Shown here: positions 23,631 to 55,176 of the stretch, piece by piece
How the letters are laid out: each line of letters starts with the position of its first letter
How positions within the stretch are numbered: position 1 is the stretch's first letter
Assembly (NCBI GenBank): GCA_001600615.1
Contig: BCKK01000005.1
Location: forward strand, 992,001 to 1,056,000
Length of the DNA stretch: 64,000 nucleotides
From: Dioszegia crocea
Lineage: Eukaryota > Basidiomycota > Tremellomycetes > Tremellales > Bulleribasidiaceae
Direction of reading: 5' to 3'
Made by a program: the position numbers and the translations under genes
Notes under the pieces: model-generated
The model's input: the letters and a program-made list of their open reading frames with translations, nothing else
The model's database searches: none
What the model was told of the DNA's origin: nothing

Positions 23631-24654
23631 ATGTCCTCCAACTCAGCTTCATTCCCAGCCCCCTTCCCATCAACCTTACCTCATTCCGCCCAGGCAACTC
23701 TCGCCTCCCTCCAGAATGGTCGCACTGCCCGCTGGTCACTCAGACACCCTGATAACTCGTACCAAGCCGGCCACCGGCTGGCGCTACCGCTGGCAAAAGG
23801 CTACGACTCCATCAAGTACGGAAAAGCCTACGAGAACGCGCGACCTGCTCGTCAACACGGGCACGTTCAATACTGCTCTCACTGAAGCTCAAGTGGGTCC
23901 GCTTTGGCGGGCATTCCTCGACAGGACAGGCTACTGCCCTCATCAGCGCGGTACGGGTCATCCCATCATCAACTGCCCCGTCGGCCTTACTCAAAATGCA
24001 GAACATTACAGGCGCGATGGTCCCAGTATGGCATTGACAACTTTGGCCAATACCGTCACTCGCCAGAATATCGGTTGGACGAATGATACTCAACTTCTCG
24101 ACGCTGTAGCTAAGGCTAGTGGCGTCTCCACTGACCTCGCCACGACTAAGCCCCCAACTACCACTGCTATCCCCACGACGATCCCCCAACCCAAACCCAA
24201 ACCTGCTCGAGCGACAAATGCTGAAATTTGCCGTTTATTGGCGACGAGGTGGAAGATGACGGACCCAGCAGATCGCATATCCGCGCTCAAGGCCTACAGC
24301 AAGGTGAAGAAACCTCTCGATCGGCGCACGATCGCACCCACCGTCACGGCCCTAGTATCAGCAACCAACAACTCCATCATCCCCCCAACAGCCAATCCGG
24401 GTCTGAGAGCTGCCAAGCGACCGACCCCGCGTTGCGAATGTTACGAGGACGAGTATTGTGACATCTGTGACCCGAGTCTCGACGATAATGGGAATCCCAA
24501 GGTCAAAAGGGCCCCACTCATCCCATGGCTCACTACTGAAGATACCTACCTCGCCGCCGGGGTCAGTGTGGTCAGTCTTTTGGCCGCTGGCTGTTGGCTC
24601 TACTCCAAATCACTCGCCTCGTCCCGTTCTCAAGGAAGGATGTACAACTACTGA
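23631..24654 (+). CDS. family member 1: tail-anchored protein with Cys cluster
   Basis: The main frame runs to TGA at 24654 and encodes DLLVNTGTFNTALTEAQV, PLWRAFLDRTGYCPHQRG, SMALTTLANTVTRQNIGW, EICRLLATRWKMTDPADR, a Cys-rich patch CECYEDEYCDIC, and a C-terminal transmembrane segment (YLAAGVSVVSLLAAGCWLY) followed by a short tail ending MYNY. The 5' end has two models. Starting at the leader-proximal ATG 23631 needs a 58-nt intron (23759-23816, GTACCA...CAAG) that enters the main frame; starting at ATG 23716 needs no intron. Without splicing, the 23631 ATG drives an overlapping 84-codon frame. It resembles the protein at 25360 (PLYDALLGGTGC; IKALTTFYTNTGYTN) and lies in tandem with it. Function unknown; likely anchored to an internal membrane with its bulk in the cytosol. 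Confidence 0.68.
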
Positions 24655-25359
24655 GGTCTTATCACCAATCTCGGATCGTCCGATCCTGTCGACTTCGTCT
24701 CAATCCCCTGCTCTCTCCATTTCTCGAAGACCCATATCCCATCCGCGGCTGTCTAGTGCGCTGCCTACCTCATACCCGGCGCTGTATCAATGTGTCCCCT
24801 TCTGGCGACCTCGAAACACTATCGCCGCCACCCAAGTTCCATATCCGACTTCATCCCAAACTCCTCAAAGTGCACATTCATGTATTTGCCCGCTGCCGGT
24901 CAATCGTATGTATATCTATACCTACTTTGCGCTGCATTATACAAATAGTCTTGTGAGTGCACAGCGAGCCCACGTATGGGTCATGGAGCCTGCAGCCGTG
25001 AGAGGACCCTCACACTCCACTTGAAGTCGATCCTGAGTGCGCCTTGGGCAGGGTCTAACGAAACACGTCTGGACCACATTCAAGGGATAGTCAGCTACCC
25101 CTGTTCTGCATATGGTGTCAGCCCTGTCTGTGATGTTCGGGTGAAAGGAGATCAGCCGTCCAAATCCCTCGCGTTGGTTCAGCTTTTGACCCGTGCATAG
25201 TCTCCCCCGCTTTGTACCCCAATCTATCGATACGATACAGCCTTCCACCGATCAGACAGTCACATCAAGGTCATTCAAAACTTACTGAAATCTGCTATAC
25301 CCACGCCCAAATCCCAGCACCCAAATTTTGATCAAAGCTCCCTTCTTACTCGACTCGCC
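24655..25359. other. intergenic region between tandem family members
   Basis: About 700 bases with overlapping open frames that show no protein-like conservation. Promoter and leader of the next gene at the right end. Confidence 0.5.
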
Positions 25360-26292
25360 ATGTCCACTGGCACGCCTACTTCCCGGCGTATGCCCCGCTC
25401 CCAGACCCACGAGATACTCACTTTCGGTCCAATCACAGACCTGGCCTTCGCTGGCGACGAGGCGAGGTCAAGCCAAGAAGTGAACATCCTGCCTCTGTAC
25501 GACGCGCTCCTTGGTGGTACAGGCTGCGAATTGTCATTCGAAGCGCCTCCTGGTACGTCATTCAATACCGACAGCCAGTCAGACCGAGACCGCGTCAGAC
25601 CCCTTGTATCGGACGCAATGTTGACCTTTGTTGTGAATGCTGTCTTTGACAAGAACTTCCGATACCGGAATCAAAGACATGCCATCAAGGCGCTGACGAC
25701 CTTCTACACCAACACGGGGTATACCAATACGATATCGCCATCAGCGAATGTCGCCGTCGCTGACATGGCTGACTGGATTCGTGGAATGAGTGTGGCGACC
25801 CGTCGCGGGTGGATTGAGACGTACTTTGCGAGGAGGGCCCATGCGGAGCCGGAGGCAGGCAGCGATGATCATGGTCAAGAGTGGCAGCAGGATTGGGTGG
25901 ATCCGGTGCCGGACCCCAGTGTGGTGGAAGCGCAAGGCTGGGAGAGGGATTGGATGGACCCGGTGCTGGATCCCAGTACTGTGGAACAGCGAGGCTGGGA
26001 GAAGGATTGGGAAGACGCAGATTCGGAACGTGGGTCGGTGGCAAGGTCCGAGTGGGAAGAGTATAGGGAGGAGGGCTTTGCCAAGATCGGCAACGGACTG
26101 AATGTCCATGAAGAACAGACCCGCCAAGCTAGACTGAATGTCGAGAGGAGGAGAGCGGGAAGGAAGGCGGAGACGAGCAAGAGTCGGTCTGACAAGTTGG
26201 CGTTGGGGGCAATCACTCTTCTCACTGCCCTGGGTTTAGGCGCTGCAGCATACCACTTCTGCTCCCGGTCCGGCGACACGTACACCGATTAG
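25360..26292 (+). CDS. family member 2: tail-anchored protein with 19-residue repeats
   Basis: A single 310-codon exon. Residues 27-60 (DLAFAGDEARSS, LPLYDALLGGTGCE) align with family member 1. Residues 85-126 (DAMLTFVVNAVFDKNFRY, IKALTTFYTNTGYTNT) and the motif DMADWIRGMSVATRR at 135-149 align with the protein at 54517 (DLEDWVGKMSVDTRR). Residues 174-230 are three 19-residue acidic, Trp-rich repeats. After a basic coiled stretch (QARLNVERRRAGRKAE) a transmembrane segment at about 279-298 (KLALGAITLLTALGLGAAAY) and a 12-residue tail close the chain, so it looks tail-anchored. There is no signal peptide. No family is recognised. An intronless gene is unusual among its neighbours. Confidence 0.8.
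   Translation: MSTGTPTSRRMPRSQTHEILTFGPITDLAFAGDEARSSQEVNILPLYDALLGGTGCELSFEAPPGTSFNTDSQSDRDRVRPLVSDAMLTFVVNAVFDKNFRYRNQRHAIKALTTFYTNTGYTNTISPSANVAVADMADWIRGMSVATRRGWIETYFARRAHAEPEAGSDDHGQEWQQDWVDPVPDPSVVEAQGWERDWMDPVLDPSTVEQRGWEKDWEDADSERGSVARSEWEEYREEGFAKIGNGLNVHEEQTRQARLNVERRRAGRKAETSKSRSDKLALGAITLLTALGLGAAAYHFCSRSGDTYTD
25879..26049 (+). repeat. three 57-bp coding repeats
   Basis: Three tandem units of 19 codons inside family member 2. The units begin EWQQDWVDP, GWERDWMDP and GWEKDWEDA; the first two share DPSVVE/DPSTVE, the third is diverged in its second half. Confidence 0.8.
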
Positions 26293-26555
26293 CAGTTTGA
26301 AGATTCCCCCTTCCAGATACCAGAACTCTCAGCTAGAAACCATTTATCGCTTTGTTAATACTATCGTTAGCTCTTGTAGATTCAGATGTTGTGCCATCCA
26401 TGTGCTCACTCGCATCCACCAGTCAGCGTGGACGCCAGTGAAGAGTCACCATATCCATATTGCGTCGTAGTCAAAACCTCGACATCAGACTCTTTGCCAC
26501 CGAATCGCACAATTAGCCAGCAGAGAACTCACAGAACGCCAATTACATGCCGCAT

Positions 26556-27698
26556 CTAGAGATCGACCAATCCCCCCTGTTCAGCCGCCCTCCCTTTCCC
26601 ATTCCCCAACCCACCCGCTCCGCCTTGTCCAGCCACTGGAGATCGCCACGCATCCGCCTCTCCACCCAGCGCATTCTCCCTGACGACCGTTTCGGTCAAA
26701 TCTCTCGGTTCATCCAAATCATCATCGTCCTCCAGACTGAACCGTCCCGCAAACCCATCCTCCTCATCTTCCTCTGCAGCACGTATATGGCTGTATCCTC
26801 CACTTCGCTGAGACCGCCGCCAACCGAATCCTTGTCCGCCTGTCGGCCGGCTAGCCGCGTGGCCATTTGACGCTCCGCCTGAGCCGAATTTGGGCAGAGA
26901 GACCGAGGGGAGTTTGAAGGGAAGGGAAGAGGGGATGGGGAATTGTTCGATGCCTCGTCGGCCGAGATAGAGGCGGTTGTAGAATGTGTGTCCGAGGAAC
27001 CAGGTTAGAACTGCTATCAGAAGACTGATTGGGTTAGCTTTGACCTGCCCCAGAGGAGACTGGGAACTTACAACGACCCAAAAGCGGTATAGTGGCCTGA
27101 CTCTAATGAAGTCTTGGATGTTGTGGGACATGCGACGTGGGTATGCCACTCAAAGAAGAATTGACAGTGGTTTGCTGGATCTCCAGGTGGAAGAGCGGCG
27201 ACGAGGACAGGTTTGCCAGCTGAGAATTCGTTTGGGTTGCAGACGAACTTTCAGTTCAGCTATAGAGTACGACACAGTCTTTGCAGCTGACGACAAGTCT
27301 ACTCACTCTGATAGCTGAAGATGCGGCTGTGAGTGGGTTCACAGGACATGCCGAGCCTAGCTTCATGTACATCATCGGTTCTTTGGTACTTTCAGACAGA
27401 AGCAGTGTCGAGTTGAACTGACTGTTCTGGTCAGCTTCTTTGAATGACACTTCGAGGCTATCGGCCAGAAAGCTTACCCAAGCGAGAAGTCCCCGCGCTC
27501 TCTAGTCGTATACCCTCCAACCAGTTCTGGGTCATCGACCTTGTACAGCTCTCCAACGACACTTCGACACACGTTCAATTTGTACTCCCTGTCCCCGACT
27601 GTTGCCGTATAATCCGAAGCGGCTGAAGAAAGCGAGGAGAGATCGTAGTGGGTCCCATCGTCCAGCGTGAGGGTACAGGGGTGGTGACAGGTAGCCAT
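26556..27698 (-). CDS. MRH-domain membrane protein (Atg27 / Mrl1-like)
   Basis: Minus-strand exons give CTLTLDDGTHYDLSSLSS, YKLNVCRSVVGELYKVDD, GGYTTRERGDFSLG, GSACPVNPLTAAS, SFVCNPNEFSAGKPVLV, and NHCQFFFEWHTHVACPT, followed by a transmembrane segment (FLLIAVLTWFLGHTFYNRLY) and a cytosolic tail with acidic clusters (EEDEEDG, EDDDDLDEPRD). The Cys spacing and the final C-x-FxFEWHTxxAC match the mannose-6-phosphate-receptor homology fold used by Atg27 and Mrl1 for sorting between Golgi, endosome and vacuole. The first visible Met is MATCHHPC, directly at the domain, so the expected signal peptide is not visible. An acceptor-like cctttcag just upstream hints at an unseen 5' exon. Divergent from the gene at 27876. 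Confidence 0.82.
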
Positions 27699-27875
27699 AG
27701 TGTCTCTGCGAGCTAGCTGAAAGGACAATGTATAGTGGCCAAATTGGCCGAATCTTGAGCTCGAAAGCAGACCGAGGTCCTTACGTCATCGCTGTGCCGA
27801 TACAAGATTTGGTGGCCGGGACTCACAACCTTGTTGTCTTATCACCTCTTTTTCTCCTCCTCCCAGCAATACACA
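27699..27875. promoter_or_regulatory. short divergent promoter
   Basis: Only 177 bases separate the MRH-protein ATG and the ATG of the small mitochondrial protein, so one compact region serves both. No TATA element is seen. Confidence 0.5.
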
Positions 27876-28461
27876 ATGCCTACCTTCAGAGCCCCAACCG
27901 ATATCCTACGGCTGGTGAGGCGCCTGCCCTCATCTAACCCACTTGCAGCATGTCAAGGGGCAGCCCCACTCCTCTCGGCTCGACCAATACATTCCACCCC
28001 TCTCCGCCAGGCTTCTGAAGTCCCGAAGGACCCTATGGCCCCACCCGACATTCAGGCATTTTACGACAAGCTCGTTAGTCATCCTGGTGCCATGGACGCT
28101 TTGATCACCGCTAGGAAATTGATGCAAGATAAGGGTACGTCTTGATAGGCAGTCGGTCGCGTGAGGGGTTTTAGCTGATAGTTGTAGGGTACGACGTCAC
28201 TCGACCGCCTAGCACGTTGGAGATTATGAAGCTTGGGATGGATAAGGATATGCGCGAAGCGGGCTCGAAGGTGTGTCATACGCCGTCAGGGTAGGTTTGG
28301 GCAGAGGCTGATATTCGATTAGTTGATGTCGGAACTAAGAGATGCTGGAGTGGAGGTGAAGCCCGAGGTGAGTCAGGCCATGCTGAGGACGAGCGTCAAG
28401 TGCTAATGATTCTCAGGTATTGAAGGCTCTGTTTGAGAGGATGAAACCATCGTCAAAGTAG
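27876..28461 (+). CDS. small mitochondrial protein, unrecognised
   Basis: Four exons encode about 145 residues. The N-terminus (MPTFRAPTDILRLVRRLP, SARPIHSTPLRQAS) is rich in Arg and hydroxylated residues and lacks acids, with an RxIHST-type cleavage context, so import into mitochondria is likely. The mature part is helical: IQAFYDKLVSHPGAMDAL, LGMDKDMREAGSKLMSEL, EVLKALFERMK. No family is recognised. Size and helix content would fit an accessory subunit of a respiratory complex or ribosome, but that is a guess. A short TCC-rich leader precedes the ATG. Confidence 0.75.
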
Positions 28462-28740
28462 AGGTGATCGAAGTGCGAGGAGCGGGGGTTCTATAGATGC
28501 GTTAGTTGGCGGTTGTACCTGTGTAGCTTCCTGTATATGTTATTATCCTTCTCCGACTCTTGGTTGTCTTGCAGCGCTTAGCATCAAAGATCATCGATAT
28601 CCTAGCATGCCCCGCCGATGACCAATGTCGCCAAAATTCTGCGAGACCAGGCCCACGGCGCACGCAGGGTCCGGGTTCTCGATGAATTCCGTTTGTTCAT
28701 CCTCTTGCCTCTTGACTTTGATCCGGTTCATGGCTTTCAT

Positions 28741-30045
28741 ATGCCTGCCGCTCTGGTCAGCTATGACTCCTCCTCATCCGACACAGACGATAGCTCTCCT
28801 GGACCTGCATCTGGGCAGAAGCGATCCGCGCCCTCGGCTCAGATAGCCACAGCCACAACCACCTCAATCTCACCTCCAGCTAAAAAGTACGTTCCCTAAA
28901 TTCGTCTGCCTGGTCTTCCTGACGTTGTTCTTACCTGGGCAGAAAGCGTGGACTACCAAAGCTTCCAATATCGTTTGACACGGCCAGTACGCCCCCTCTA
29001 GATACACTCGCCAAGTCCCATATGCGACAATGCTGATATTGTCAAAGATCCCAAAGATGATCCATCGCAACATCAAGGTCGAAAGCGCTCACGCCCTTTC
29101 GTCCAGGGCGATTACAATGCCCATATCTACATCTCCCGTATGTTCACCTTCGGTCCAATGAGAGCGGCTCGATGCTGATTTCGTATAGTCGCTATACCCA
29201 CCGCGCTCCGACGGACGATTGAAGAAATAACTACCCTCGCTGGGGATCTTTGTCCGGGACATACGATCCAGTCTTTAGTCTCCACACCATCGCTTCCTGT
29301 ATCGAGAGCAATAAAATCTGACCTAAGTGGAGGTCAAGCTCGAAAGCCGACAATAGATCTTCCGCTTCATATATCCCTCACTCACCCACTCCCGCTCCGC
29401 CAATCCCAGCTCGTTGCGTTCCGGGATGACTTGCGTGCAGCTCTACGCCAGACGGTGACAGCGGACGGGAAAGGGCTCATAAGGCTGAGTCTGGCTGGGG
29501 ATGTGGTGGGTTTCGTCAATGGGAGGCGGTATGGTGGGGAGGGAGCGGGCGGGCGAGCGTTTTTGGCTCTTAGGGTGACGGCTGGATCAAAAGAGGTAAG
29601 TCTGTTCTTTTCTACTCCCAGTCTGTCCAAGGTAGATGGTATTGGACCATCCCTTATCCTCCCTGCACGACTCTGGCTGATAAACGATCAGATCGAAAGG
29701 CTCGTCACCGATACCATCCACCCCATACTCGCCAAACTCCATTTACCACTATACCATTCCAACCCTCAATTCCACACTTCGTTCGCTTGGACACTGACAG
29801 ATCCTTCATCTAATCTTCCAACTGGAAACACGGTCGAAGACGGCGATGATCTGGAAGACCAAGTTCCTGCTACTTCACAATCGAAAACGGGCGAACATGG
29901 TAATACCCCCTTTACGCCGGAGGCTCTCGCCGCGATTTCGGAGCGGTTCGGGAAGGCTTTGATTGATGCGCAGCCTAGGGGTGGATGGGAGATAGGAGAG
30001 CTGGAATTGAAGATAGGCAAAGAGGTACATAAGTTGCCACTATGA
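28741..30045 (+). CDS. USB1: U6 snRNA phosphodiesterase Usb1 (Mpn1)
   Basis: A 2H-phosphoesterase. The N-terminus opens MPAALVSYDSSSSDTDD, the acidic/Ser start usual for Usb1, followed by a KKRGLP basic patch. Both catalytic H-x-S motifs are present: LPLHISLTHPLPL and PQFHTSFAWTL. Between them are GFVNGRRYGG and RAFLALRVTAGSKEI. It ends GELELKIGKEVHKLPL, the family's C-terminal strand. Usb1 trims the oligo(U) tail of U6 snRNA in the nucleus and protects it from decay. Four introns are inferred. The frame is open upstream to an ATG at 28618; I prefer 28741 because of its match to the family start. A Gly-rich insert (YGGEGAGGR) sits in the loop before the second strand. Confidence 0.9.
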
Positions 30046-30138
30046 CAGGGAGATGCAGCTGTGCAATCCTACACGTTTGACACACCGTCGCTTACACAAT
30101 ATCCTGCGTGACAAGGTAAACCCACTACATATGCCATG

Positions 30139-31695
30139 CTATCTATATCTATAAGTCCCGCCTGATCCTCCAATAGGCACTGGAACACTTTGGAACCTTT
30201 TCAACAACTCAATCTCCCACTCCCTGTACTCCCTGTCCCGCCTACGAGCCATGACGGCCTCATCCGAGAACATCTTCCTATACTCGCTATCCGCCATCCC
30301 ATTCGCCCTCGCCTCCTCCTGCTCTTCCCTCTCCGCATCAAGCAACGCCTTCCGCTCGACCAATGCACGCTCCCATACCGCCCATGGTATACTACCACCT
30401 GCCGGTCCCGATGGTGAGGGGTTGACATACTCCTGCGGAGGCGCCGCTGGGGTACTTTCCAGATTCATCATCGCCTCTTCGTCATTCTCCGCCACAGGCT
30501 CCGGTTCAGCCGGCACCTCGACCTCCGCCTCCTCCTCCTTCGCATTCCCATCTAGCACTTCCTCATCCCCATGTAAAGGGAACTCCCCCTGCCTCGTCCG
30601 TGTCAGAGTAACAACGTGGGCACCGCATCCCAACGCCAATCCGATATCATGTACGATACTCCGGACGTACGTCCCGCTCGACACAGTCATCCGGACTTTG
30701 AAACTCGCCGGTCGTAAACCCGTGGCTGGCGAAGTTTCGGGCACCTCCTCAGCGTTGAGATCGGGAACAGCCGGGTCGGCTTTGGAGTCATGTGCCGATT
30801 CCGAGGCCTTGTGAACAATATCCGTCAGGCGCTTGAAAACTGTCTTTTCCTCGGATGATAGACGTTCTTTGGGCCAGACCCAAGAGTGGCCGCCGTCTCC
30901 TGACGTAACGGAGGCAGGGCGGAAGTCTAGGAGGTCGATCGAGACTGTGCATTCTCGGACGGGGATGGGTCGGGGTAGGGGCTTAGACTCGCGCGCGTAT
31001 TCATATAGCGGCTTACCGTCCATCTTTAGTGCGGAGAAGCTGGGCAAGTCAGCTCAGGTACGTAGTCAGATGAGTCGAGACGTACATTGGTGGTGTCTGG
31101 TTGATTTTGCCTCGGAACTGATCCAGGACTCGCTCAACATCCTCGCGCGTGATTCCGTCGAAGGAGTGGGTTGACATTACGGGCCCTTCAGAGTCGTACG
31201 TTGTAGTTGCAGCGCCGAGAAGACCATCGCTTTCGTATTCCTACGGAACGTCAAATTGTATACAGATGACCATATCTTGGTATTTCGTAGCTCACCTTGG
31301 AGCACTCCAAGAACTTGTTCAAATGCTTGGTACCCCTGTTCACGCCAATCACTGTCGGCAATCAGCTTAATGTCGAGCGTCGTCCGATGATTTTCAGCTC
31401 ACCAAGCACACCATCCGCCAACGGATCCAACGTTCCCCCTTGTCCAATCTTCAACCCTTTATGCGTCAGGTTCTGCTTCCTCTTGTGCTTCTCCTGCGGT
31501 TTGACCTGGTCAGGGTTGTAGAAGAGCTTAGAGTCGAGTAAGAGCGGCGTAATATCGTCAATAACTCTCATCCTGGCCTGTCAGTCCGTTCTCATATTAG
31601 CCAGTGGGGAAGACGTACGAGCTTGGACCTGATGGTTTGGCAATAGGGAACAACCCATTGAGGGGAAGCGGAGGGGTAGTGGGTGCTTTCGGCAT
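30139..31695 (-). CDS. PUS4: tRNA pseudouridine-55 synthase (TruB family)
   Basis: Minus-strand exons read [33 protein letters not shown], the catalytic [15 protein letters not shown] (Asp of GTLDP is the nucleophile), [33 protein letters not shown] and [20 protein letters not shown]. Later come [19 protein letters not shown] and [18 protein letters not shown]. This is the complete TruB core. Pus4 makes pseudouridine 55 in the T-loop of nuclear and mitochondrial tRNAs. Eukaryote-type insertions are large: about 60 residues between the PUA-proximal strands ([10 protein letters not shown] to ETSPATGL) and an acidic C-terminal extension ([15 protein letters not shown]) ending in a basic segment. 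Introns are confined to the 5' half. It diverges from SAD1. Confidence 0.93.
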
Positions 31696-32230
31696 CCTGA
31701 GGGATGATATTTTGGGCAAGGCAAATGCGATTTTGGCGCAGTGAGAAAAGCTTCGGGATAGCAGCTTGACGTTGGGCTCCTATGTGAGCTCTGGTGAGTG
31801 GTGCTTTAGGAAGTCCGAGTGTAGTGTGAGATGAGGCAACAGCATCGCATGTCTGCAGCGAAATCTTTGGCAGTCAACTTTCTGGTTGCTTTACGTAAAA
31901 GTCCAGTCAGGGAAGGAATGGGGCGCCCAAACTCTATTAACTGAGCTCTCCATCCTTCTTCCTCTTGAGACTGCACCATAGTCACGTCCTACACAGAGGT
32001 TGTCGACGCACAGATCAGAGCGCTCAGATTCAGCTATATCATAGCCAACTTTCAGCATCAAAATCGAATCAACCGCTGGAGTTATCGCGGTGCTCGAAGC
32101 CTGATAAAAGGTCCGCTCCCCCGCCACTTCAGTTTCTACCTTTGATACCTCGACCCCAAGCATAAGCGTGAGTACGATTCAGCTTTGCAACTATCACCTG
32201 ATAGAAGCTTACACCACAGCTTGGCAAGTA
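31696..32230. promoter_or_regulatory. divergent promoter between PUS4 and SAD1
   Basis: About 535 bases. On the SAD1 side a GTGAGT donor at 32168 and an AG shortly before the ATG suggest a 5'-leader intron. No TATA element is clear. Short frames on both strands are shadows. Confidence 0.45.
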
Positions 32231-34194: not shown

Positions 34195-34762
34195 GGATTG
34201 GGCTGAAGAGGGAGTTACGGGTGTGAAGTTTGAAGGAAGAGTTGCATCTTGCGAGAGGATGCAAACCATACATTTTCACACTTATGCCATCAGGTATGAT
34301 CCATGTTCATCTTCCAGACGGTCTACTTACGGCCCGTCATCGATATCTAAGCGGCGCTTAGCGAGATGTACTAGCGGAGCAGCTAAGCCATGATCTGCAG
34401 ATCACCGCTAGATGTATTGTGATACTGGCTAACTTACCTGGTCTATATCAAAGCAACCCAAGAGGCCATATGGCTGGGTCATCGAATTTACTAGAACAAA
34501 CTTGCGCTTTTGGGCGTTTTGAGTGAAGAAGGGGTCAATCAAAGGAAGATGTGACCAGGATCCGAAAGCTGTAAGGAGCGACACCGCTATAAAGCAGGGC
34601 CCTACCGATGGAGCACAAAGCTCGACGAATCCCCTCACAGTCTCTTCGTATCCCCCATCATCTTCAACTTCAAGTTCCCCGTTGCACCTCCATCGTCCAC
34701 ATCCTCACACCCACCACCCACCACGCTTGACTACAATCTACGTCTTCCCATATTCCAAGATC
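34195..34762. other. intergenic region with core promoter
   Basis: About 570 bases. The left half is SAD1 3' flank. The right half has a TATA element at 34588 and a long pyrimidine-rich leader before the ATG at 34763. Confidence 0.5.
34588..34594 (+). promoter_or_regulatory. TATA element before family member 3
   Basis: TATAAAG, 175 bases before the ATG at 34763, followed by a C/T-rich leader. Confidence 0.5.
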
Positions 34763-35293
34763 ATGGCTGAAATCACCGATATCACCGGCTCCCTCGAGTG
34801 CGACCTACCATGGGTCACTTTGCGGATTCTGCTCGCGGGCATTGCCACGAAGGCAAATCCTCCCCTCGACCCCAAGTTCTGGGACAAGTCATGGGACGAC
34901 GCGCTCGACGCGGCCTCACTGCAACAAGCGACTTTCGACAGCAAAGGGACGGGCACTCCACTCAGCACACTGCAGAAAGGCGCCTGGTTGGCATCAGGTG
35001 CAAGCATCTGCTCGCAACCATGGCGACCCCGGGCTGATTTCAAATCAGTCGAAGAATGTCTACAGGTGATCGGAAAGCGCTACAACACTGACTTCACTCG
35101 CTACGAAGGCAACTCCCTTGACGCTGCCGCCTGCGACATGGCCCTGGACATACAGCAGACTGCTCCCCAGGTCCGAGCGCAAGCCCTCATGCGTTTTTCA
35201 ACGGACAAGGCAAACACCGACTCGGCGAGCTTCTGGACGGACGAGATGAAGGCGAGGCTGGCGGCTTTGAGCCAATTCGGAGTGCGGAACTAG
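34763..35293 (+). CDS. family member 3: soluble short form
   Basis: A single 176-codon exon starting MAEITDITGSLECDLPW. Residues 73-104 (GAWLASGASICSQPWRPR, FKSVEECLQVIG) align in order with residues 84-112 of the protein at 54517 (EAMFLAGVFDPSYGETF, IGSVSTAIS). The DM-x-x-[WI] motif appears as CDMALDIQQTAPQVRA at 124-139. Unlike members 1, 2 and 5 it has no C-terminal membrane segment and ends LAALSQFGVRN. The similarity is weak and I infer membership from the order and spacing of aromatic, hydrophobic and charged positions rather than from identity. A strong-looking promoter (TATA, long leader) precedes it. Function unknown. Confidence 0.65.
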   Translation: MAEITDITGSLECDLPWVTLRILLAGIATKANPPLDPKFWDKSWDDALDAASLQQATFDSKGTGTPLSTLQKGAWLASGASICSQPWRPRADFKSVEECLQVIGKRYNTDFTRYEGNSLDAAACDMALDIQQTAPQVRAQALMRFSTDKANTDSASFWTDEMKARLAALSQFGVRN

Positions 35294-43238: not shown

Positions 43239-43419
43239 GATATCTGGGTCGGATCTAGGGGCCGAATCTTCTACTGTAACCAACTGTTCTGAGTATCTTG
43301 GGACTTGTAGCGTATATGTGTGTTGTTTCGCATGAACATGTCGGAAGCGTCCATATTAGAGATTACAAGTACAAAGGGTGATGCCTCTCCGCGAAATACT
43401 GAGCACAGGATCCAGAGAC

Positions 43420-45582: not shown

Positions 45583-46160
45583 AGGCCTGTCTCTGGTTGT
45601 AGGGGTGTGTGTACGGAGATGGTGATGAATGTGGAGCCTTCCTGGGTGGCAAGGAAGAAAGACAGGCGCCTTGTTTACGGGTGGCAAAATTTGATTCCGT
45701 TAGTGGCGCCAACGTGAATGTGGCGGTTGCGGATTGCGTTTGTAGGTGGCCATCGGTGTGATGCGCAGGACGGTAGCGCTCCACTTGACATCCGCTCCGA
45801 GATATAACTCCTATGATTTGATTGGATCAGCCATGCACCAAACGCATCACACCATGCTGGTCTCAAAGGTCAAACGGTCTCCTGGATGAAGGGAATAGGA
45901 TTGTTCCGCGTCGCGATGTTGCTGAGCAGCACAATCCATCCATTGTGCTCTATCTCCGCGACGAAATGGTACTCCGTACTCCCGAGGTCGACAGACGGAA
46001 ATAGAGGCACATCAGTCTTTCTCAAGCATCATTCGTCCGTCAAGACAGCCTGCTCTCCCTCAGCGCGGAAATCTTCAATCCTCAAGTACTCTTACCCCCT
46101 TGCCTACTCCCACCCAGGTCCGGACCGCACAAGAATCTCACACTTTACATCCCGCCCATC
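45583..46160. other. intergenic region
   Basis: About 580 bases: promoter of the coiled-coil gene on the left, leader of family member 4 on the right. An open frame from 45886 has no protein-like features. Confidence 0.45.
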
Positions 46161-46738
46161 ATGTCCAGCAAGACAGATTCTCACACTTCGTCCAAAGGCT
46201 ACTATTCACAATTAAATCCCGGCATCGTTGATGCACTGTGCAACGCGCGTTACCGTTCAACTCAGCGGAGGAAGCTACTGTTGAAGAAGCGGGAACCGAG
46301 GCCTGGCGGACAGGCCAGAAGTTCATGGGGATGGCGAGCAAAGCGCGGTCTGCTCGGCTGGGCGGAATCATGACTGACAAGAAATACAAGTCATTCAAGG
46401 GTAAGATTATCGACAGGATCGCGGGCTGGATGGCTGAGGACAGAGGCGAGAGCGCCGATGCGCCGGCAGAGGGCGAGATCACTGACGACATGATGGCCTG
46501 GCATGCCTTTACAGGAAAAGATGCGGGTGATGGGATGCCTTCCAGCTGGGCAGAGAGCACGGATATGGAGAAGATCGAGAGCATGAACTTCCGACTGAAG
46601 GAGATGCTCGAGATGACTGTCGGGATCAGGGGGTCAGACGATGACAGTGCGGATGCGTCCTGGATCAGTCCGTCAGCATGGGCGCAACTTTCATCAATGG
46701 GAATCATCGGCTTGAGCTGTGTGGCAGCGGCTTTGTAG
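46161..46738 (+). CDS. family member 4: divergent, reading frame interrupted or spliced
   Basis: The leader-proximal ATG opens MSSKTDSHTSSKGYYSQLNP and, unspliced, stops after 70 codons. A second frame overlaps it and runs to TAG with GTEAWRTGQKFMGMASKA, KSFKGKIIDRIAGWMAED, EITDDMMAWHAFTGKD and a hydrophobic C-terminus (AQLSSMGIIGLSCVAAAL). The frames join if 44 bases are removed after GGCATC (GTTGAT...GCGGAG), a poor donor, so either a weak intron or a frameshift separates them. GTEAWRTG matches GTEAWKAG of the protein at 54517, and DDMMAWHAF sits where members 2 and 5 have DMADWIRG and DLEDWVGK. The hydrophobic end lacks a charged tail. It may be a decaying copy. Confidence 0.55.
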
Positions 46739-47150
46739 TCGGGATAGCCTGGGTTTACTCGCACCTCACATGCGTCACTGAGGACCGTACATAGAGGTAC
46801 GTAGCTGGAGTCTAGGGTATCTTTAGATCTGTATTCTGTCCTCTCATGCCCTGTACTACACTCTACATCGGTCGAAGGAGGTATATGATATACTCATATA
46901 CCCAAACAGTCGCAAATAATCGTATATACTGCTCTGGCTAATTTACGTTTGTCTACAGAGATCGATCCGAAACTTGGAAACCCGAACTAAACAAAGAAAC
47001 CGATGGGAATGAAATCGTCAATGCAAAGAAAGAGAGAAGGAAAAGGGAACAGAAAGAGTGAAAGACCGAAAATCAAGGCGATGTTGATTTGGAAAATAAC
47101 AGAGATTTAAGGCGGCGAATACCAAATGAAGGTCTAGATGATCCGAAGTT
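46739..47150. other. intergenic region between convergent genes
   Basis: About 410 bases of 3' flank, A/T-rich near 46880-46940 (atatgatatactcatatac). No gene. Confidence 0.5.
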
Positions 47151-50124
47151 TCACTGATTGGGGTTTGGTCCAGCGCTGGTAATTGGGTTGGGATTGGGAT
47201 TAGGGTTGACGGGTGATTGTCCCTGTTGGTGTTGAAGGATTTTATTGGGTGATGATTCCGGTGCGCCGGGGGAAGTTGCTGATCCGTGAGTGTTGGGGCT
47301 AAAGACGCCATTGGCTTCGAGGCTTTTGTGTGCCTGTAGGATATTAGCTGTGTCTCCTGATTATCCAAGGCAAGTGAACTTGGTAGCTCACCTGTAAATC
47401 CCTCATCACTGCTGGGTCCATTGGCAATGTCGATTTCCGCCTAACATGTGGGTTGGCAGGACTGCCCGATGGTGGGGACGCAGCTCCATTATTGCTATTC
47501 TGATGTATCCCCAACCCAACCGGTCCGCCAAGCTGTGGTGGCCCGCCTAGCGTTGGTGGTCCAGGTGGTGTTGTAGACTAAAGGGTTCAGCTGAGATTCT
47601 CACGAAGCGTGGAACTACAGCTGTGAAGAGGGACATACCGTTCTAGCCTCAATCCCAGGATCGGCAACAGGGACCATCTCATCCGCCTGACTCTTCTCCA
47701 TGGTGAAACTCTCTGAAATATCAAAGCCATTCGCCATCATGTCTACTGAAACATCACATGCGCCTTCGTCGACATATGATTCGGGCCGGGGTGGAGGCTC
47801 GGTCGTTAAGGATTTAGGTAGTGGTGCTGATGTTCCCGAAGCGTGATGGTTGGCAATTGCTTGTTCTCGCAGCATCATCCATTCTTCGTGTCGCGCGATG
47901 GCTCGATCGCAATCACTGGAGAAATCAGCATAGGTACGAGGCCAGATTGACCGGGGAACTGACGCTTTTCTCTGATCCTTGTAGCCATTCTGACATTGCT
48001 CGAAAAGGTGTGGGTTGATCTCCATGAATAGCTTGAGGGCATTGTAGACCATTCCGTGTATTGTCCTAGATTCATCAGCTGCTGTGCATTGGCTGGAGAA
48101 GGCACGCTAACTCACCGATTCCAATGCGTCTTGGAGTTGATGTACAATGGCGGGAAGACGATCGGAAGGATAGTGGCGATATTCTCAGACATGAGATTGA
48201 CGATATATTCATTGTTCCAGTAATACAGCGCGCGTTCAGCAACCTGAAAATCAGCTTAGTCTACCCTCTGGAGTCGACAGCTACTCACCTGGAAATGCTG
48301 ACTATTGATACACCTCGATAATTGCGTAAAGAGTTGAACCATAATCTTCTGAAACTCATTCGCCTCAATCACATCCAAAATCTCCTCAACCTCATTTAGG
48401 AACATGACTTCCTTTGGCGAATTAACTTTCGGCCAGTATCTCAATAGACCCAACAACACCTCTTCCGTCAACCCGGCATCCTTCTCCAAGAACTGTACGA
48501 CACAGTACGCCAATTGTGGGTGATACAATGCGAGACTCTTTGCTTTGTGCAAAGGGATAAGCACGCGCGTGAGGAAGGATTTATGCTCATCCTTCAATGG
48601 TAAAGCGAAACCGTTGATGATTGAACCGAGAATTTCGAGTAGTTCCGCAATTCCATTATGACGTTCAGTCTCGTAGATGAATTGGAAAAAGACGTTGTTG
48701 ATTGATCGTCGAATAAAGGCGCGGAGGTTGAGGAATTTACCGTAAATTCGATGAAGAGTGGTTTTTAGGAAATCTCGCTCGCGGGGATCTTCACTGTCGA
48801 ATAGTTCAAGTAACTGGGAGTCAGTAATTGACATGGTCTTATCGCGGTCATTTCGACTCACTGAAAGTACAAAGTTCTGATCAATGTAGCGTTTGCCTAG
48901 ATTTGTGTTGAAGTCCGCAGATTCCACGAAGCGGAGGAAGAATTCGTAGACAATCTGAAGATGTGGCCAGGCGAGTTCAAGCACCGGCTCGTCCTCTTCG
49001 GGATCATACGCATCGCCAGTGGGGTTGACCTGTGGCGGGATGGATCTGAAAAGATTGGTGGCAAACTAGAACATCAGCTCCGGCCTATCCTATCGGGAGC
49101 GGCGAACTGACCATGCCAACAACCTCTGGGTATATCGCCTCTGTGATGACTCCCCTCGACGTCGTGATATACTCCAACATCTCATGCAACGTTTGCGCCT
49201 TGACCTGCTTCCCATTCATATCCGCACTGGCATCGTTGAAGTCAAAGACCACTCGGCATTGTTGGAGTTTCTGAATGAACAAATCTGTCCGTTCTTCTGG
49301 TCGAACCTCTGCATTATCAGCTCGACCTCAATCCACCGCCAGAAAACCCCTATACGCACCGTTGAACGCTGGTAACTTCTCAATATCCACCTTCTCTGAA
49401 ACGTAGAACCTGCTACTCCTTTGCTTTCTCGGCGTCTTGCCTACGATAGGTATCGTATCCTTCGGTGTCCCCCGCAGCCTGTTCAGCGGTCCAGCCTTGG
49501 GCGGTGTGGGCTGCCCATCCGGTCCCAGCAATCTCTCCGGACTTCCAAATCCTCTCCCGTGAGGCGAGTGCGGCATGGGATCGGCAGGCATCTCGCTGGG
49601 TCCCATAGTCCCAGCTGGTGCACCCGATATGACCACGAGTGGCGGCGCAGGCGATGTCTTCTCGCCCACTGGCGATCGGCGGGGAGTGATGGGTTGTTGT
49701 TGTTGCTGAGGGGCAAGGGATGAGGGCTCGCCATTTGGAGCACCGGGAGCGAATGGGGATGCTGAAGTACGTGTGATAGGGGATGACATGGGGGACGATG
49801 GGCCAGGTGAGGAGTTGGAGGGGAGTGCAGGGGTGGGTTTAGATGTCGATGGGGAGGGTGTCTTATTCTTTTGATCGCTGGATTTCGTCCTCGACAGGTT
49901 CTGCAGAATCAGCTTTGGCCCGATTTATCCCGACAGATCCTGGCAGAGCTCAAAGTCATCCACAGTCCCCGCTCGTCTGACCGATCCTTTAACCTCGAGC
50001 TCTTGGCCCGCTCCGTCGCCGACTGAACGATCCCTGCCACCGATGCCGCTCGCATGTGGGTGTCCAGCAGTCTCAAAGCTAGCAGTGCCGATAAACCTAC
50101 CATGGCTTTCTTGAGTCCCTTCAT
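47151..50124 (-). CDS. RTS1: PP2A regulatory subunit B56 (B')
   Basis: The first exon is MKGLKKAM, spliced to [19 protein letters not shown] disordered Ser/Pro/Gln-rich region follows, then the B56 HEAT-like domain: [19 protein letters not shown] edge, [104 protein letters not shown] and [18 protein letters not shown]. The C-terminal region is unusual: [17 protein letters not shown], a Ser-rich stretch and NPNPNPNP before TGA at 47151-47153. The subunit directs PP2A to substrates in stress response and septin and cohesin control. Many introns of about 50 nt. Complete and apparently functional. Confidence 0.94.
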
Positions 50125-50757
50125 ACTGGGCAAGATCTCCACCTCCTTCTTTCCTCAATTCAGGCGAATGTTGACGTTGACGCGCGCGACTACGGTAAAC
50201 AAATCGAGCGGTTGCGTCCGTTGACTAGCTCCGATACGTGTCTGATGCACTTCCGCTGATAATTATGTCCCGACTGTAAGTCAGAGGTGTATGACGTCGT
50301 GATGTGTCGTGTCGTGTCGATGTTGACGTTTATGAGCGGGATGTGGGGCCTTTGGTTTGGGTCCAAACACGGAGCCCGGGGCGTGATTGTTGATAGTTCC
50401 GTTGTGTGATTCTTCTAATCTAGGCGGAATTGCGACAGATGCCGATGGAGGCGAGCGAGCGTGTAGGATGATTGGGTGAGGGGTGTGGTAGTGGAGCGGG
50501 TATGTACCTGAGTAGGACAGAGTAAGATGTGGCTGTCTCTCTGTAGGAGGGGGTTAGGTTGAGTGTGGCACTTTGACCCTGAACCTAGAAAGCCCTTACG
50601 TACTCGCCACTTTGTTTGGTCCCTCCCACAAAGCCTGTCTCCGCGGCCGTTTGTCCGACTTTCCATTGGATCTTTACATCAAAACCTTGTCTGCTATAGC
50701 TATCAACCCAAACACAACTTCAGAAACAGGCCAGGCCGAGAGGATACATAGCCCACA
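50125..50757. promoter_or_regulatory. divergent promoter of RTS1 and QCR9
   Basis: About 630 bases between divergent ATGs. Repeats of gtgtcgtgtcg occur at about 50300-50320. No gene is supported. Confidence 0.45.
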
Positions 50758-51265
50758 ATGGCTGCCGTGAGTTTCCCTCTTTGAATTCCATCTGGGCAAT
50801 CGCTGACGCTGTTTTTCCTCCTATTTCCGCCTTGCTCCGATACCTCGAATCCGCATTTCCTATAACCACATCTACACTCCTTGCCTTCTCCGTCCTTCTC
50901 TATCTTGCCTCAATCCGTCGCTTTAACGTATTTCGACTCCTCGCATCCTTCCAATACACTCTCGTCCGAACACTGCACTCCTACCGCAATTCCACCACAC
51001 AGCCCATCTACAACACCCTTTTCAAGCGTAACTCCGCCTTTGTCGGCGCCATCTTCGCCGGCGCATTCACATTCTCCATCGGCTTCGATGTCCTAACATC
51101 AGCCTTCTGGGACATGCACAACCGCGGAGTGAGTTTAGGTCTATTGTTTGGCAGCGGTATCACCCATTTGGGGTTCTAGTCAATCAGAATGCAATCCTCG
51201 GACTGTAGCTGATTATACAGAAACAATGGAAGGACATCCGAGGGCGGTACATCGAGAAGGAATAG
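50758..51265 (+). CDS. QCR9: cytochrome bc1 complex subunit 9
   Basis: Three exons: 50758-50766 (ATGGCTGCC only), 51003-51128 and 51221-51265. The protein is MAA + PIYNTLFKRNSAFVGAIF, AGAFTFSIGFDVLTSAFWD, MHNRG + KQWKDIRGRYIEKE, about 60 residues, matching Qcr9 with its single transmembrane helix and the HNxGKxWKD end. It sits in the inner mitochondrial membrane near the Rieske protein of complex III. The first intron is 236 nt, four times the local norm, and stays open in the QCR9 frame from 50781 on. Apart from the donor it has no AG until the acceptor. A longer isoform would need another start. Confidence 0.92.
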
Positions 51266-52229
51266 ACGGGTTCAGGAAGTTTGGCGGTCGATCAGGGGAG
51301 TGGAGGGTTTGGGGATGAGGAGGAATGCAGCGATGGTTTGATGTCAGCGGGGATCTATGCGGCAAGAAACGGTGCGCTGGGCGATCCTATGCTGACACTG
51401 TGGCGGGCCGTTGGTGACTGCCTCGGCCGATGTCCCTGGTTTTCCCTTTCGACTTTCCAGGGGCCTACTTGGACGAATCTAAGTTCACTCACCTCCTCAC
51501 GTCAAAACACACAGCAAAGTACACCTTGAGGATCATCCTTTGTTCGAGATCTGTCAGCTTGCAGCGTCATCGGCTCACGCTACAGTACGACCTGACCAGA
51601 GTCCGACGTAGCTGAGAGCGAGGCATCACAGATCTTCGAGCTGCAAATCCCGTAAAATCGCTCGACACGTGCGCACTTCGAAAAGGCCCACTGCTTCACA
51701 AACTCAGGAAACTTCTGGTGAGCGTTACGCCGACACAGGGCCGCGCTCTCCTACCACTGTCGCCTCAGGAGTATAACCCACTGTCCGTAGCGTCTGGGCC
51801 CAGGACGTGTATAGCAGCGTCAGGGCCAATGATTTGGAATTCCGCCGGGCCCATATGCCTCACCCTTTATCTAGCACCACACCCCACTCTTCTCTTAGTA
51901 CTGCTACTGAGATTTCTCTCAATAGCGACCGTGTAGCCTCTGAGGTCTGAGGAGGTCGGGATGATTGCCCAAGTCACACATCTGCCAAGAAAACAAGAGG
52001 TTCCGGGGTACTTTCTCCTCTGCACCAAGAACGCGAGAACTGAGAACTCGGAGCATGAAGCACCTCCAACTTGCCTACAACCCACCGCGATCCGCATCTC
52101 ACCCACCGTGCTCCTTACCCACGTACAGCGCGGTCCATAGTCAGACCAGAAGTCTGAGAGATACCCGGCTATTCTTCCGAGCCTCCCGACCTGACCGCTA
52201 GTGCTCAAAACCCCCGGGCGACCAAAACC
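51266..52229. other. intergenic region
   Basis: About 960 bases. Weak frames on both strands (51281-51615, 51867-52208) do not look like proteins. No RNA gene recognised. Confidence 0.45.
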
Positions 52230-53853
52230 ATGCTCGTCCTATCCTCACCCTACCTCATCTTCCCATACATCCTCCATCTCGCCTCTCTGCTCCCTTTCAC
52301 TTCGGCCCGCCAGTCTATATTCGAAGAGCGGGAGATCCAAACTCTATCCACGGAACATCTGACGCAGCTCGTACATGCAGATCCGCCAGATTGGGAGGGG
52401 ACGACGGAGGGTCATCTAGGAAAGCTGTTGATACCTAGACCAGGTACGTGTGTTCTTTGTATTCTGTTAAGGGTAGGAAGAGCTGACGGATATAGTTGGC
52501 TCGAAGAATAAGTAGGCTATTTCATCTTCAGTCCGCCTGGAAATGATAAAGAGTGGAGCTGATATACACAGCACACTGGTACAACATTACATATCGTCCG
52601 TTTTCAAACGGCTAGGATGGCATGAAGAGCAGGTACCTCACTCTTTCTAGTAAGATATCATCTGCTGATCCGCTAGGACCCCTTCAAGTCACAAACACCA
52701 ATAGGAGAGCTAGACTTTACAAATTTAATCTTCACATTCGACCCCGATGCTCCTCGGAAGATCATCATTGCAGCTCACTTTGATTCCAAGTACTTCCCCG
52801 ACTTCCCAACGAACCAAGTGAGCTTCACGCCCTTGTGGTTCTGTACTCCAGCTGACACCCCAGTTCATCGGCGCGACAGACTCAGCGGCGCCATGCGCAT
52901 TCATGCTGGATCTTGCAGAGGCTATGACGCCCTTACTACAATCTCGACAAGCGAGAATACGGAATGGGACGAGTATCCTCCGAGAGGGTTTCAACGAGGA
53001 AGATGCGGGAGATACGACATTGCAACTGTTGTTCCTTGATGGTGAAGAGGCATTCAAGGATTGGACAAATACCGACAGTATCTACGGGGCGAGGTATGTT
53101 TCTGCCGAATTTTCTCTTGATTGGACGGTTGGAGCCGGGTACTGATATACTAGACATCTAGCACAAGAATGGTCTGAAAATTTCCTCCCTCCCACTCATC
53201 CCCTGGCAATGTCCGCACGGCGATACGATCCCACCCCATCCATCCTTGAGACAATAGATGTCTTTGTCCTGCTGGACCTGCTCGGCCATCGCTCGCCAAG
53301 GATACATTCATACTACCGCGAGACGGACTGGTTGCATGGTTTAATGTCAGATGCGGATAAGCGCCTGAGAGAGGCGGGATTGGTCGATGTGGAAAGTGGG
53401 GAAGAAGGGTGGTTTAGCGCTAATAGGATGGGACCGGGTATGATTGGGGATGACCATGTTCCTGTGAGTCCAACCCAGGATTAGAGATTCCGGCCTGATG
53501 CTGAGGCTACAGTTTAACCAAAGAGGCGTTAGCGTCCTACACGTCATATCAAATCCATTCCCGAATGTCTGGCATTCTCTAGGCGTAAGTCTTATGCCCT
53601 TTGATGGAAAGGACTCTTATGCTGACCTACAGGATGACGCATCGGCACTCTCCGTCCCAGCGATGAACCGATGGAACAAGATATTAAGGGTGTTCACATC
53701 GGAGTATCTGGGTCTGACACCTGACGCAACGAAACGAGACGACGAGGCGGATGACGAAATGAGAAGAAGAAGAGACGAATTTGTACGTTCTGTCAACTCA
53801 TTCCCTTGACAATGGCATGTTGAGCTTTCAAGCTGGAGGAGAAAATGAGCTGA
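52230..53853 (+). CDS. glutaminyl-peptide cyclotransferase (M28-like)
   Basis: A signal peptide (MLVLSSPYLIFPYILHLASLL) opens an M28-type zinc fold. Spliced exons give LVQHYISSVFKRLGWHEE, IIIAAHFDSKYFPDFP, GATDSAAPCAFMLDLAEA (metal Asp), LLFLDGEEAFKDW (metal/catalytic Glu), SIYGARHLAQEW, IDVFVLLDLLGHRSPRI, DDHVPFNQRGVSVLHVI, NPFPNVWHSLGDDA (metal His) and a helical C-terminus. The enzyme turns N-terminal Gln into pyroglutamate in the secretory pathway. The 3' end has two models: read-through to TGA at 53809 (VRSVNSFP), or a 50-nt intron (GTACGT...TTTCAAG) leading to LEEKMS and TGA at 53853. I prefer the second because the intron is typical in size and signals. Confidence 0.9.
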
Positions 53854-54516
53854 CGAATCAAGTAGTCATGATAGCTTTTGGGCGACTTGCAAGTCGGATA
53901 TCTGGACGTGTGTTCAGGACGAGAATCTAGAGATGTCACGAGCCTTCATTGGTGAATGCTTAGCGGGCGGCGTGATCGATCGAGACTCGTCAAATCTTCC
54001 GTCTGGCTGATGCGGGCTGTGTCTGAAGCTGGTCGATCACTCTAATCACGCGCGGGTAAGAGGACTCTGATACCATGCTCATGCGGCTGACTGTTCCGCG
54101 TAGGTGATGGCGAAACCCAAAACTGACCAAGCTCTCAAAGGATCTCGTGGCGAGAGGTATGAAGCATGTCTGGACGCCCCAGGGGTTAAAGGGGTGTGAT
54201 TGTATGGGCGTTTCGACCTAGACATGGAGATACATGAGTCTGACCTCTCTGCAATCGCCCAACATCTTCATCTCACTCGCCTCAGCTTCTCACTATTCAG
54301 CCGCAGACACTACACTCCCTGGTATAGCATTCACACCATCCGATATCAGGTAAGCTCAGGGTCAATTCCAAAAATCTCGAGTCAAAGCTCATACCCAGAG
54401 TCCAGACAGTTCTCATATCGAAAGATACCGCTACTAGCCCGGCGCCGCCTCTCCTCACACCTCACGTCTCAACACTCCGACCACATCCCAGATTCCCATC
54501 TCACCCATTATTCACA
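53854..54516. other. intergenic region upstream of family member 5
   Basis: About 660 bases. Contains AAGGGGTGTGA at 54189-54199. A frame from 54200 onward is the shadow of the leader. No gene. Confidence 0.45.
54189..54199 (+). promoter_or_regulatory. candidate shared upstream element (copy 2)
   Basis: AAGGGGTGTGA, identical to 23479-23489 before family member 1. About 320 bases before the ATG at 54517. Confidence 0.25.
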
Positions 54517-55176
54517 ATGTTCAAGAATCGCCTCACCAGTCACTTCCGATCCGGATCGAAAAGTACTGCGCGGTCTGATCCAACACGCCAGCTATATTTC
54601 AACACCGCTACTTGCGGAACCATCAATACGCATACCGACTTCTACACCTCCGTCTTCAACAATCTCACCAAAGACACCAACATCGAGCCCTTGCAAAGCG
54701 ACGGTAATCCCGTTAGTACGCGCGCAGACGGGACGGACAAAGACGACCCAGATCGAACGGGGAGAGAAGCAATGTTCCTCGCGGGCGTCTTTGATCCCAG
54801 TTACGGCGAAACTTTCCATAAAGACAACATTGGGAGCGTAAGCACTGCCATTTCGACTGGTATACTTAGTGCTACCCCAGGTACCGAGGCATGGAAGGCC
54901 GGGGCGTTACATAATTACACCATTGGGGACCTGGAGGATTGGGTGGGGAAGATGTCGGTTGATACTCGTAGAGATTTGATACTGAGGTATCATGAGAAGC
55001 TTGGTGTGGGGGTTTCAGAGGAGGCGAAGGGTGTGTGGGAGGGATATTCTCGGAGTCTGGCGGAGACGAGCAACGTCACCAAGGCCGCCCTAGGAACTAG
55101 CGCCATCGCGCTCGCTGTGACCGCCTCCTACTTGTACTTTAGCTCTCAAGACAGTTCCACAGGGACAGAGTATTGA
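54517..55176 (+). CDS. family member 5: tail-anchored protein
   Basis: One exon of 219 codons. A basic Ser-rich N-terminus (MFKNRLTSHFRSGSKS) is followed by YFNTATCGTINTHTDFY, EAMFLAGVFDPSYGETF at 84-100, GTEAWKAGALHNYTIGD at 122-138 and the motif DLEDWVGKMSVDTRRDLI at 138-155. A transmembrane segment at about 188-208 (KAALGTSAIALAVTASYLYF) and an 11-residue tail ending STGTEY complete it. The motif region matches the protein at 25360 (DMADWIRGMSVATRR) closely enough for common origin. No signal peptide is seen, so a tail-anchored topology with the bulk in the cytosol is the simplest reading. Function unknown. Confidence 0.8.
   Translation: MFKNRLTSHFRSGSKSTARSDPTRQLYFNTATCGTINTHTDFYTSVFNNLTKDTNIEPLQSDGNPVSTRADGTDKDDPDRTGREAMFLAGVFDPSYGETFHKDNIGSVSTAISTGILSATPGTEAWKAGALHNYTIGDLEDWVGKMSVDTRRDLILRYHEKLGVGVSEEAKGVWEGYSRSLAETSNVTKAALGTSAIALAVTASYLYFSSQDSSTGTEY

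Follow-up and report, generated by a model that had tools for sequence, protein, structure and literature searches.

We analyzed a 64,000-nucleotide stretch of the genome of the basidiomycete Dioszegia crocea (assembly GCA_001600615.1; contig BCKK01000005.1, abbreviated C5; positions 992001-1056000, + strand; hereafter called the window) together with its surroundings. The window contains five open reading frames (ORFs) on the + strand, m1 to m5, all of which had been listed in a preliminary description as a divergent, mostly tail-anchored protein family. Two further genes, m6 and m7, were found outside the window, 8-11 kb upstream and likewise on the + strand. On balance, we favor the reading that the m1 to m7 region is a local, co-oriented family of orphan proteins with a C-terminal anchor, in which regulation has been kept while the protein diverges. 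Shared descent of m1, m2, m5, m6, m7, and m4 would be the simplest account of the independent signs, because pairwise alignments, protein blocks, anchor, C-terminus, orientation, and an upstream sequence module all agree. Supported copies are m1, m2, m5, m6, and m7; m3 is a possible member. The seven genes occupy one chromosomal interval of about 66 kb (C5:981288-1047176), which is flanked and interrupted by housekeeping genes, and all seven are located on the + strand.

Gene models

The genes are listed with window positions for m1 to m5 and contig positions for m6 and m7 (aa, amino acids).

C5:981288-981992, + strand: m6, 234 aa, C-terminal hydrophobic segment, 8-residue tail
C5:982719-983672, + strand: m7, 317 aa, without C-terminal hydrophobic segment
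23716..24654, + strand: m1, single exon, 312 aa, C-terminal hydrophobic segment, 17-aa tail ending NY
25360..26292, + strand: m2, single exon, 310 aa, C-terminal hydrophobic segment, 12-aa tail
25882..26010, + strand: tandem repeat in the m2 linker, 57 bp, in-frame, 2.3 copies, 80% matches, product rich in W and D
34763..35293, + strand: m3, single-exon ORF, 176 aa, without C-terminal anchor, membership unproven
46161..46280, + strand: m4 N-terminal frame, containing GYYSQLNPGIVDALCNA, a 17-residue ungapped match to m7
46238..46738, + strand: m4 body, in a frame other than the N-terminal part, 166 aa, containing EKIESMNFRLKEMLEMTVGIR, which resembles m6 and m7
54517..55176, + strand: m5, single exon, 219 aa, C-terminal hydrophobic segment, 11-aa tail ending EY

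According to PMC9713403, D. crocea has a mean of 5.80 exons per gene; single-exon genes are therefore conspicuous. In-frame codon scores of m1 to m7 ranged from 0.046 to 0.121 and were gene-like (training mean of 0.069, obtained with long genes); the other two forward frames of these genes gave negative scores. The frames of m2, m3, and m5 were confirmed as single ATG-to-stop frames. The 5' ends described earlier for m1 and m4 are doubtful. The motifs quoted for m1 sit in the frame of ATG 23716, at which its body starts, and ATG 23631 opens a different frame of 84 codons; m4 turned out to be split over two frames. A 44-nt intron able to join them would delete VDALCNA, located within the m7-like stretch; because part of a conserved stretch would thus be excised, m4 is read as what is probably a decayed copy. 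The hydrophobic C-terminal segment of m4 is cut off by a stop codon. At window positions 46700-46800, past this stop, a different frame continues into hydrophobic sequence (VVGIAWVYSHL), which would fit a second frame break that truncated the anchor.

Protein similarity within and between groups

The proteins m2 and m5 had been described as related, and their alignment was indeed above shuffled controls, with z-scores of 5.4 and 6.0 and none of 1000 shuffles as good with each of two matrices. Both were reciprocal best matches among 2938 ORFs from 264 kb (E-values of 0.027 and 0.044). The genes m6 and m7 also matched each other: m6 retrieved m7 with an E-value of 1e-4 and m7 retrieved m6 with 5e-5 among 3498 ORFs; a protein search of the whole genome (20,574,253 bases, 17 contigs) gave 0.003 in both directions, and the aligned cores reached a z-score of 13.7 (0/2000 shuffles). 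Furthermore, m7 matched the N-terminal frame of m4 over 17 ungapped residues (GYVSRLDPVVVNDLCDA / GYYSQLNPGIVDALCNA; z-score of 8.1, 0/2000 shuffles). A block built from m6 and m7 placed a stretch of the m4 body first among 3496 ORFs, with a score of 18.0 versus 17.5 for the next. Alignment of m6 with m4 was equaled by 9 of 1000 shuffles at full length and by 45 of 2000 for the core; m7 and the m4 body aligned at background level.

Other pairs within the window were weaker. Shuffles as good as the real alignment numbered 70 and 216 of 1000 with the two matrices for m1-m5, and 112 and 191 of 1000 for m4-m5. The corresponding values of 11 and 63 of 1000 for m2-m3 came from a stretch rich in W and D, not from the motif quoted previously, and this weak score is explained by the W/D-rich 57-bp tandem repeat in m2. 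The remaining six pairs among m1 to m5 were at background, with at least 139 of 1000 shuffles as good in both matrices, and so were m3-m6 and m3-m7. Hence, the proposed link of m3 and m4 to the other genes via DM-x-x-W found no support, neither in pairwise scores nor in block tests.

The groups are connected by a short block, here called block 1, of the form LDPxxVDxLxxAFxxGTG. Searching 897 ORFs of at least 100 aa with block 1 of m6 and m7 ranked the m4 N-terminal frame 1st, m1 2nd, m2 3rd, m3 20th (LDPKFWDKSWDDAL resembles block 1), and the m4 body 224th. With short ORFs included (3496 in total), the ranks were 1 for the m4 N-terminal frame, 4 for m1, 5 for m2, and 35 for m3. A 12-mer shared by m1 and m2 had been set by the earlier reader before m6 and m7 were discovered; it ranked m7 3rd and m6 7th of 897 ORFs, and 3rd and 10th of 3496. 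Aligned directly, m1 and m2 did not rise above shuffled controls (516 and 139 of 1000 as good). Lengthened to 21-mers after the discovery of m6 and m7, the m1/m2 stretch ranked m7 1st and m6 6th among 6996 places; in reverse, m1 came 1st (tied), m2 4th, the m4 N-terminal frame 6th, and m3 20th. Hold-outs with full-length hidden Markov models gave ranks of 1 for m6, 3 for m1, 4 for m7, 10 for m2, and 910 for m5 among the non-training ORFs.

The motif MSxxTRR was rejected as a cross-group link: its best place outside m2 and m5 was the non-family ORF C5:838864-839199 (score of 30.0), and m1, m6, and m7 ranked only 254th, 358th, and 509th of 6996 places.

An upstream three-box module

A module of three boxes is located in front of m2, m5, m6, and m7, at most 410 nt from the start codon. 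Box A is TGGCGAAAC[ACG]C, with the variant TAACGAAACAC in m2. Box B, AAAGGA[TC] (AAGGGAT in m2), follows 26-32 nt after box A, and box C is TGAAAGGAG (TAAAGGGGTGTGA in m5). The distance from box B to box C is 50 nt in m5, m6, and m7, and 60 nt in m2. Within the window, the following copies were identified:

23414..23496, + strand: partial module upstream of m1, AAAGGATCTC at 23414 and AAGGGGTGTGAAAGGATC at 23479
25056..25151, + strand: module upstream of m2, A TAACGAAACACGTC, B AAGGGATA, C TGAAAGGAGA
54108..54196, + strand: module upstream of m5, A TGGCGAAACCCAAA, B AAAGGATC, C TAAAGGGGTG

Searching both strands of 314 kb with the composite pattern gave four places, all of them in front of m2, m5, m6, and m7; a reversed-string control gave none. 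A looser A-to-C pattern had four places in the same 314 kb, three belonging to the family, compared with two in the control. In hold-out experiments, a model built from m6 and m7 gave 33.5 bits for m5 and 31.8 bits for m2, the next place in 314 kb reaching 24.0; conversely, a model from m2 and m5 gave 37.5 bits for m7 and 32.0 bits for m6, with 23.8 for the next place. Upon training with three genes, the fourth was always ranked 1st. The full three-box model did not single out m1, which ranked 17-121 in seven runs, and m3 and m4 ranked lower.

An unsupervised search of the regions upstream of m1, m2, m5, m6, and m7 returned box A as the best 12-mer, which 1 of 50 random sets equaled; for sets of all seven genes, 6, 0, and 1 of 50 random sets were as good. 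The upstream regions of m5 and m7 aligned with a score of 23, whereas none of 499 random pairs scored above 19; of the 21 upstream pairs, four others fell below 0.05; downstream, m2-m5 alone did so, at 0.022. The proteins of m5 and m7 failed to align (1262 of 2000 shuffles as good). Across the whole genome, a strict A-B pattern was found at two places, m5 and m7 (control, 1). Places with zero mismatches to box A were those of m5, m6, and m7 only; allowing up to two mismatches in 20.57 Mb yielded eight places versus eight in the control, the other five all having two mismatches.

Two candidates were discarded. The sequence GCTTTTGG, also present upstream, was judged a coincidence on reading, and in m1 it falls inside the neighboring gene. 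A module-like place at C5:829956 lies within or beside exons of another gene.

C-termini and protein architecture

Hydropathy alone assigned a single C-terminal hydrophobic segment with a short tail of 8-17 residues to m1, m2, m5, and m6. This agrees with the architecture previously noted for m1, m2, and m5, whose tails comprise 17, 12, and 11 aa. Such a segment is present in nine of 267 ORFs of at least 110 aa (264 kb), and m1, m2, m5, and m6 are four of the nine. By the same measure, the tail-anchor architecture is absent from m3 and m7 and truncated in m4. In m1, a Cys-rich stretch (CECYEDEYCDIC / CECYEDEYCDICD) was observed at window positions 24400-24480, directly before the anchor.

The proteins m1, m5, m6, and m7 end with NY, EY, DW, and DY, respectively. 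An end of the form [DEN][YW] was found in only six of 400 ATG frames of at least 100 aa in 314 kb, including these four; the enrichment has a P-value of 7e-8 when five genes are drawn and of 5e-7 when all seven are drawn.

No signal peptide was apparent in m1, m2, m4, and m5, in which the most hydrophobic 19-residue stretch is C-terminal, no dedicated predictor having been run; the same holds for m6 and m7 as judged by eye only. The most hydrophobic 19-residue stretch of m3 comprises residues 11-29 and is weak (1.18). The N-termini of m5, m6, and m1 are basic and rich in Ser and Arg, with charges of +5, +3, and +4 over the first 30 residues. Predicted structures of m5 and m6 were all-helical, with a mean predicted local distance difference test (pLDDT) score of 32, which is too low for a fold search.

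Genomic setting and searches for relatives

The window lies in the middle of C5, a contig of 1,923,346 bases, and is therefore not subtelomeric as had been suggested; its guanine plus cytosine content is 51-57% in 2-kb blocks. Neighboring genes are interspersed on both strands and encode an SPB4-like helicase, a velvet protein, TruB, a ubiquitin hydrolase, a cap methyltransferase, B56, and the complex I 49 kDa subunit. The velvet-domain protein (window 14436-15710, - strand; Pfam PF11754, E-value of 8.6e-16) shows a long extra stretch within the domain frame, probably a read-through of exons. Between m7 and m1 (L023:5000-8698; window 3666-6647), several + strand ORFs, 206-428 codons long, had no match in Pfam; they may be exons of a single gene or additional orphans.

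Searches of the D. crocea genome returned no convincing family copy outside C5:981-1047 kb, although the protein search was insensitive, as m2 missed m5. One weak candidate match of m7 was located at C2:1187349 (E-value of 0.275, one stop). Thus, copies that had been called dispersed are confined to this interval as far as the searches show. A protein-database search carried out with m2 and m5 only yielded 3991 candidates for m2 and 396 for m5, none at an E-value of 10 or better. As a control, a polyamine-oxidase-like exon retrieved Dioszegia hungarica, which the database covers, at 86% identity. Pfam, NCBIfam, and PHROGs contained nothing above cut-off or below an E-value of 0.05, in agreement with the earlier statement that no named family is like this one. 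Comparison with solved structures, using m6 as the only query, gave a best E-value of 0.23. In the literature, no title describing such a family was found, and the terms 'Dioszegia' and 'tail-anchored' together retrieved no paper.

Several apparent relatives were dismissed. The pattern D..DW...M occurred at eight places in the whole genome (control, 1), namely m2, m5, and six others; of the six, only one falls within a long ORF, whose protein is unlike the family beyond the motif. The pattern AFxxGTG occurred at 21 places versus 24 in the control and was thus not in excess. Candidates at C5:837-839 kb and 877.6-878.8 kb were discarded on reading; the latter is antisense to what we take to be a dynamin-like gene. 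A weak match of m5 at C1:1941106 (E-value of 0.03) proved on reading to be a different gene, presumably a lumazine-synthase-like one.

Discussion

The family may have arisen and spread locally by tandem and short-range duplication in one orientation. Each intact gene consists of one exon and would be switched on via the three-box module, for which the conserved sequence suggests promoter use, and the family is probably co-regulated. The protein would comprise a helix-rich soluble part, as suggested by its sequence and by models of unusable confidence, followed by a variable linker and, in m1, m2, m5, and m6, by a single C-terminal membrane segment with a short tail. In four genes, an acidic or amide residue plus Tyr or Trp closes the tail or, in m7, the plain C-terminus. 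The functional portion would thus lie on the cytosolic side, with the anchor fixing it to an internal membrane. We infer that expression timing is constrained while the protein is relaxed or diversifying, given that m5 and m7 have upstream DNA that can still be aligned but proteins that no longer can. The discovery of m6 and m7 outside the window is what supports a divergent, mostly anchored, putatively lineage-restricted family for m1, m2, m5, and, via m7, m4; the membership of m3, claimed as well, is unproven. The preliminary description contained neither these two genes nor the upstream module and the C-terminal [DEN][YW].

A number of results weigh against a single family. Pairwise alignments between the groups are at shuffle level, m5 ranks only 308th of 897 ORFs by block 1 of m6 and m7, and a second block ties together only m6, m7, and m4. 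Full-length model hold-outs all had E-values above 1, and an unsupervised protein block search was modest (1-9 of 60 shuffled sets equaled it in six settings). The full upstream module is missing from m1, m3, and m4. With training on m5, m6, and m7, m2 scored 28.9, which barely exceeds the 28.3 of an exonic place; moreover, the boxes were defined with all four upstream stretches in view, so that the hold-out was not fully blind. The unsupervised upstream search was likewise modest, with 18- and 24-mers settling on different sequence in the five genes (equaled by 5 and 3 of 50 random sets), and upstream k-mers in common were not above random draws. Finally, the C-terminal [DEN][YW] is absent from m2, m3, and m4 and was spotted post hoc.

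A duplicated module might have been captured by separate, perhaps de novo, coding sequences, resulting in two unrelated protein groups (m2, m5, and perhaps m1; m6, m7, and m4). Such an origin would fit strong pairwise similarity that is confined to the groups, with background scores between them, and upstream DNA that is better kept than coding DNA. Yet the cross-group ranks of block 1, the anchor in m1, m2, m5, and m6, and the [DEN][YW] ends on both sides would then demand a second coincidence, and we regard promoter capture as rather unlikely. It is very improbable that seven unrelated orphans merely share coincidental motifs: most cross-group pairwise scores lie at shuffle level, and low-complexity, helix-rich proteins yield spurious motifs, but m2-m5, m6-m7, and m7-m4 exceed all shuffles, which largely refutes chance for these pairs, and the module hold-out and the C-terminus are independent of the protein blocks. 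A mobile element could have left such genes as cargo or remnants, given that they are intronless, locally multiplied, and without relatives found; however, the copies are located among housekeeping genes on both strands, scanning of 30 neighboring ORFs revealed no mobile-element domain, and PHROGs matches occurred only at E-values above 0.05, making this origin scarcely credible.

With respect to function, a local family of anchored proteins may consist of stress- or stage-induced organelle-membrane proteins which drift fast under weak constraint and have the same anatomy. We consider such a role a serious contender, albeit at less than an even chance. It would suit the basic, Ser/Arg-rich N-termini of m5, m6, and m1, which also occur in some mitochondrial proteins, and the presence of AGGGG, the core of a stress element in budding yeast, within 700 nt upstream of m1, m3, m4, m5, and m6, a sequence that is nonetheless frequent (the + strand of 314 kb has 384). 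Drift and diversifying selection are not told apart by the measurements made. A role in recognition or conflict (antiviral, anti-element, or self/non-self) is a guess by analogy, to which we give a minority share of our confidence; drift under weak constraint fits the data as well. That the region represents an undescribed Dioszegia locus for allorecognition or for antiviral or anti-selfish-element defense, with upstream DNA outliving a driven protein, appears doubtful.

As a rule, regulatory DNA is eroded more quickly than the protein whose gene it controls. This pattern is reversed in m5 and m7, whose upstream regions align beyond all random pairs while the proteins do not align. If selection is the cause, the locus marks proteins made together yet ever changing, a signature sought in recognition and conflict genes. 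In addition, the three-box module provides a handle for finding orthologues in sister species where protein searches fail.

Comparison with known systems

Like fungal orphan and taxonomically restricted genes (review, PMC12684174), the genes described here have no significant match in Pfam, NCBIfam, or PHROGs, and m2 and m5 are likewise without relatives in a protein database holding a Dioszegia proteome. Unlike a lone orphan gene, they form a multi-copy local set with a common upstream module and C-terminal motif. In m1, m2, m5, and m6, one C-terminal segment, a tail of 8-17 residues, and no obvious hydrophobic N-terminus resemble tail-anchored proteins, an assignment based on hydropathy alone; the segment is absent from m7 and m3 and cut in m4. 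Smut fungi possess clustered, fast-evolving effector families that are secreted with signal peptides. The present genes are similar in being a small local set of co-oriented, highly diverged, and plausibly co-regulated paralogues, but differ in having no apparent signal peptide. Fission yeast has wtf-type spore killers, a single-lineage set of quickly evolving membrane proteins that are multi-exon and multi-span; compared by description, the D. crocea genes share with them fast evolution and a local set of membrane proteins, and are set apart by one exon and at most one span.

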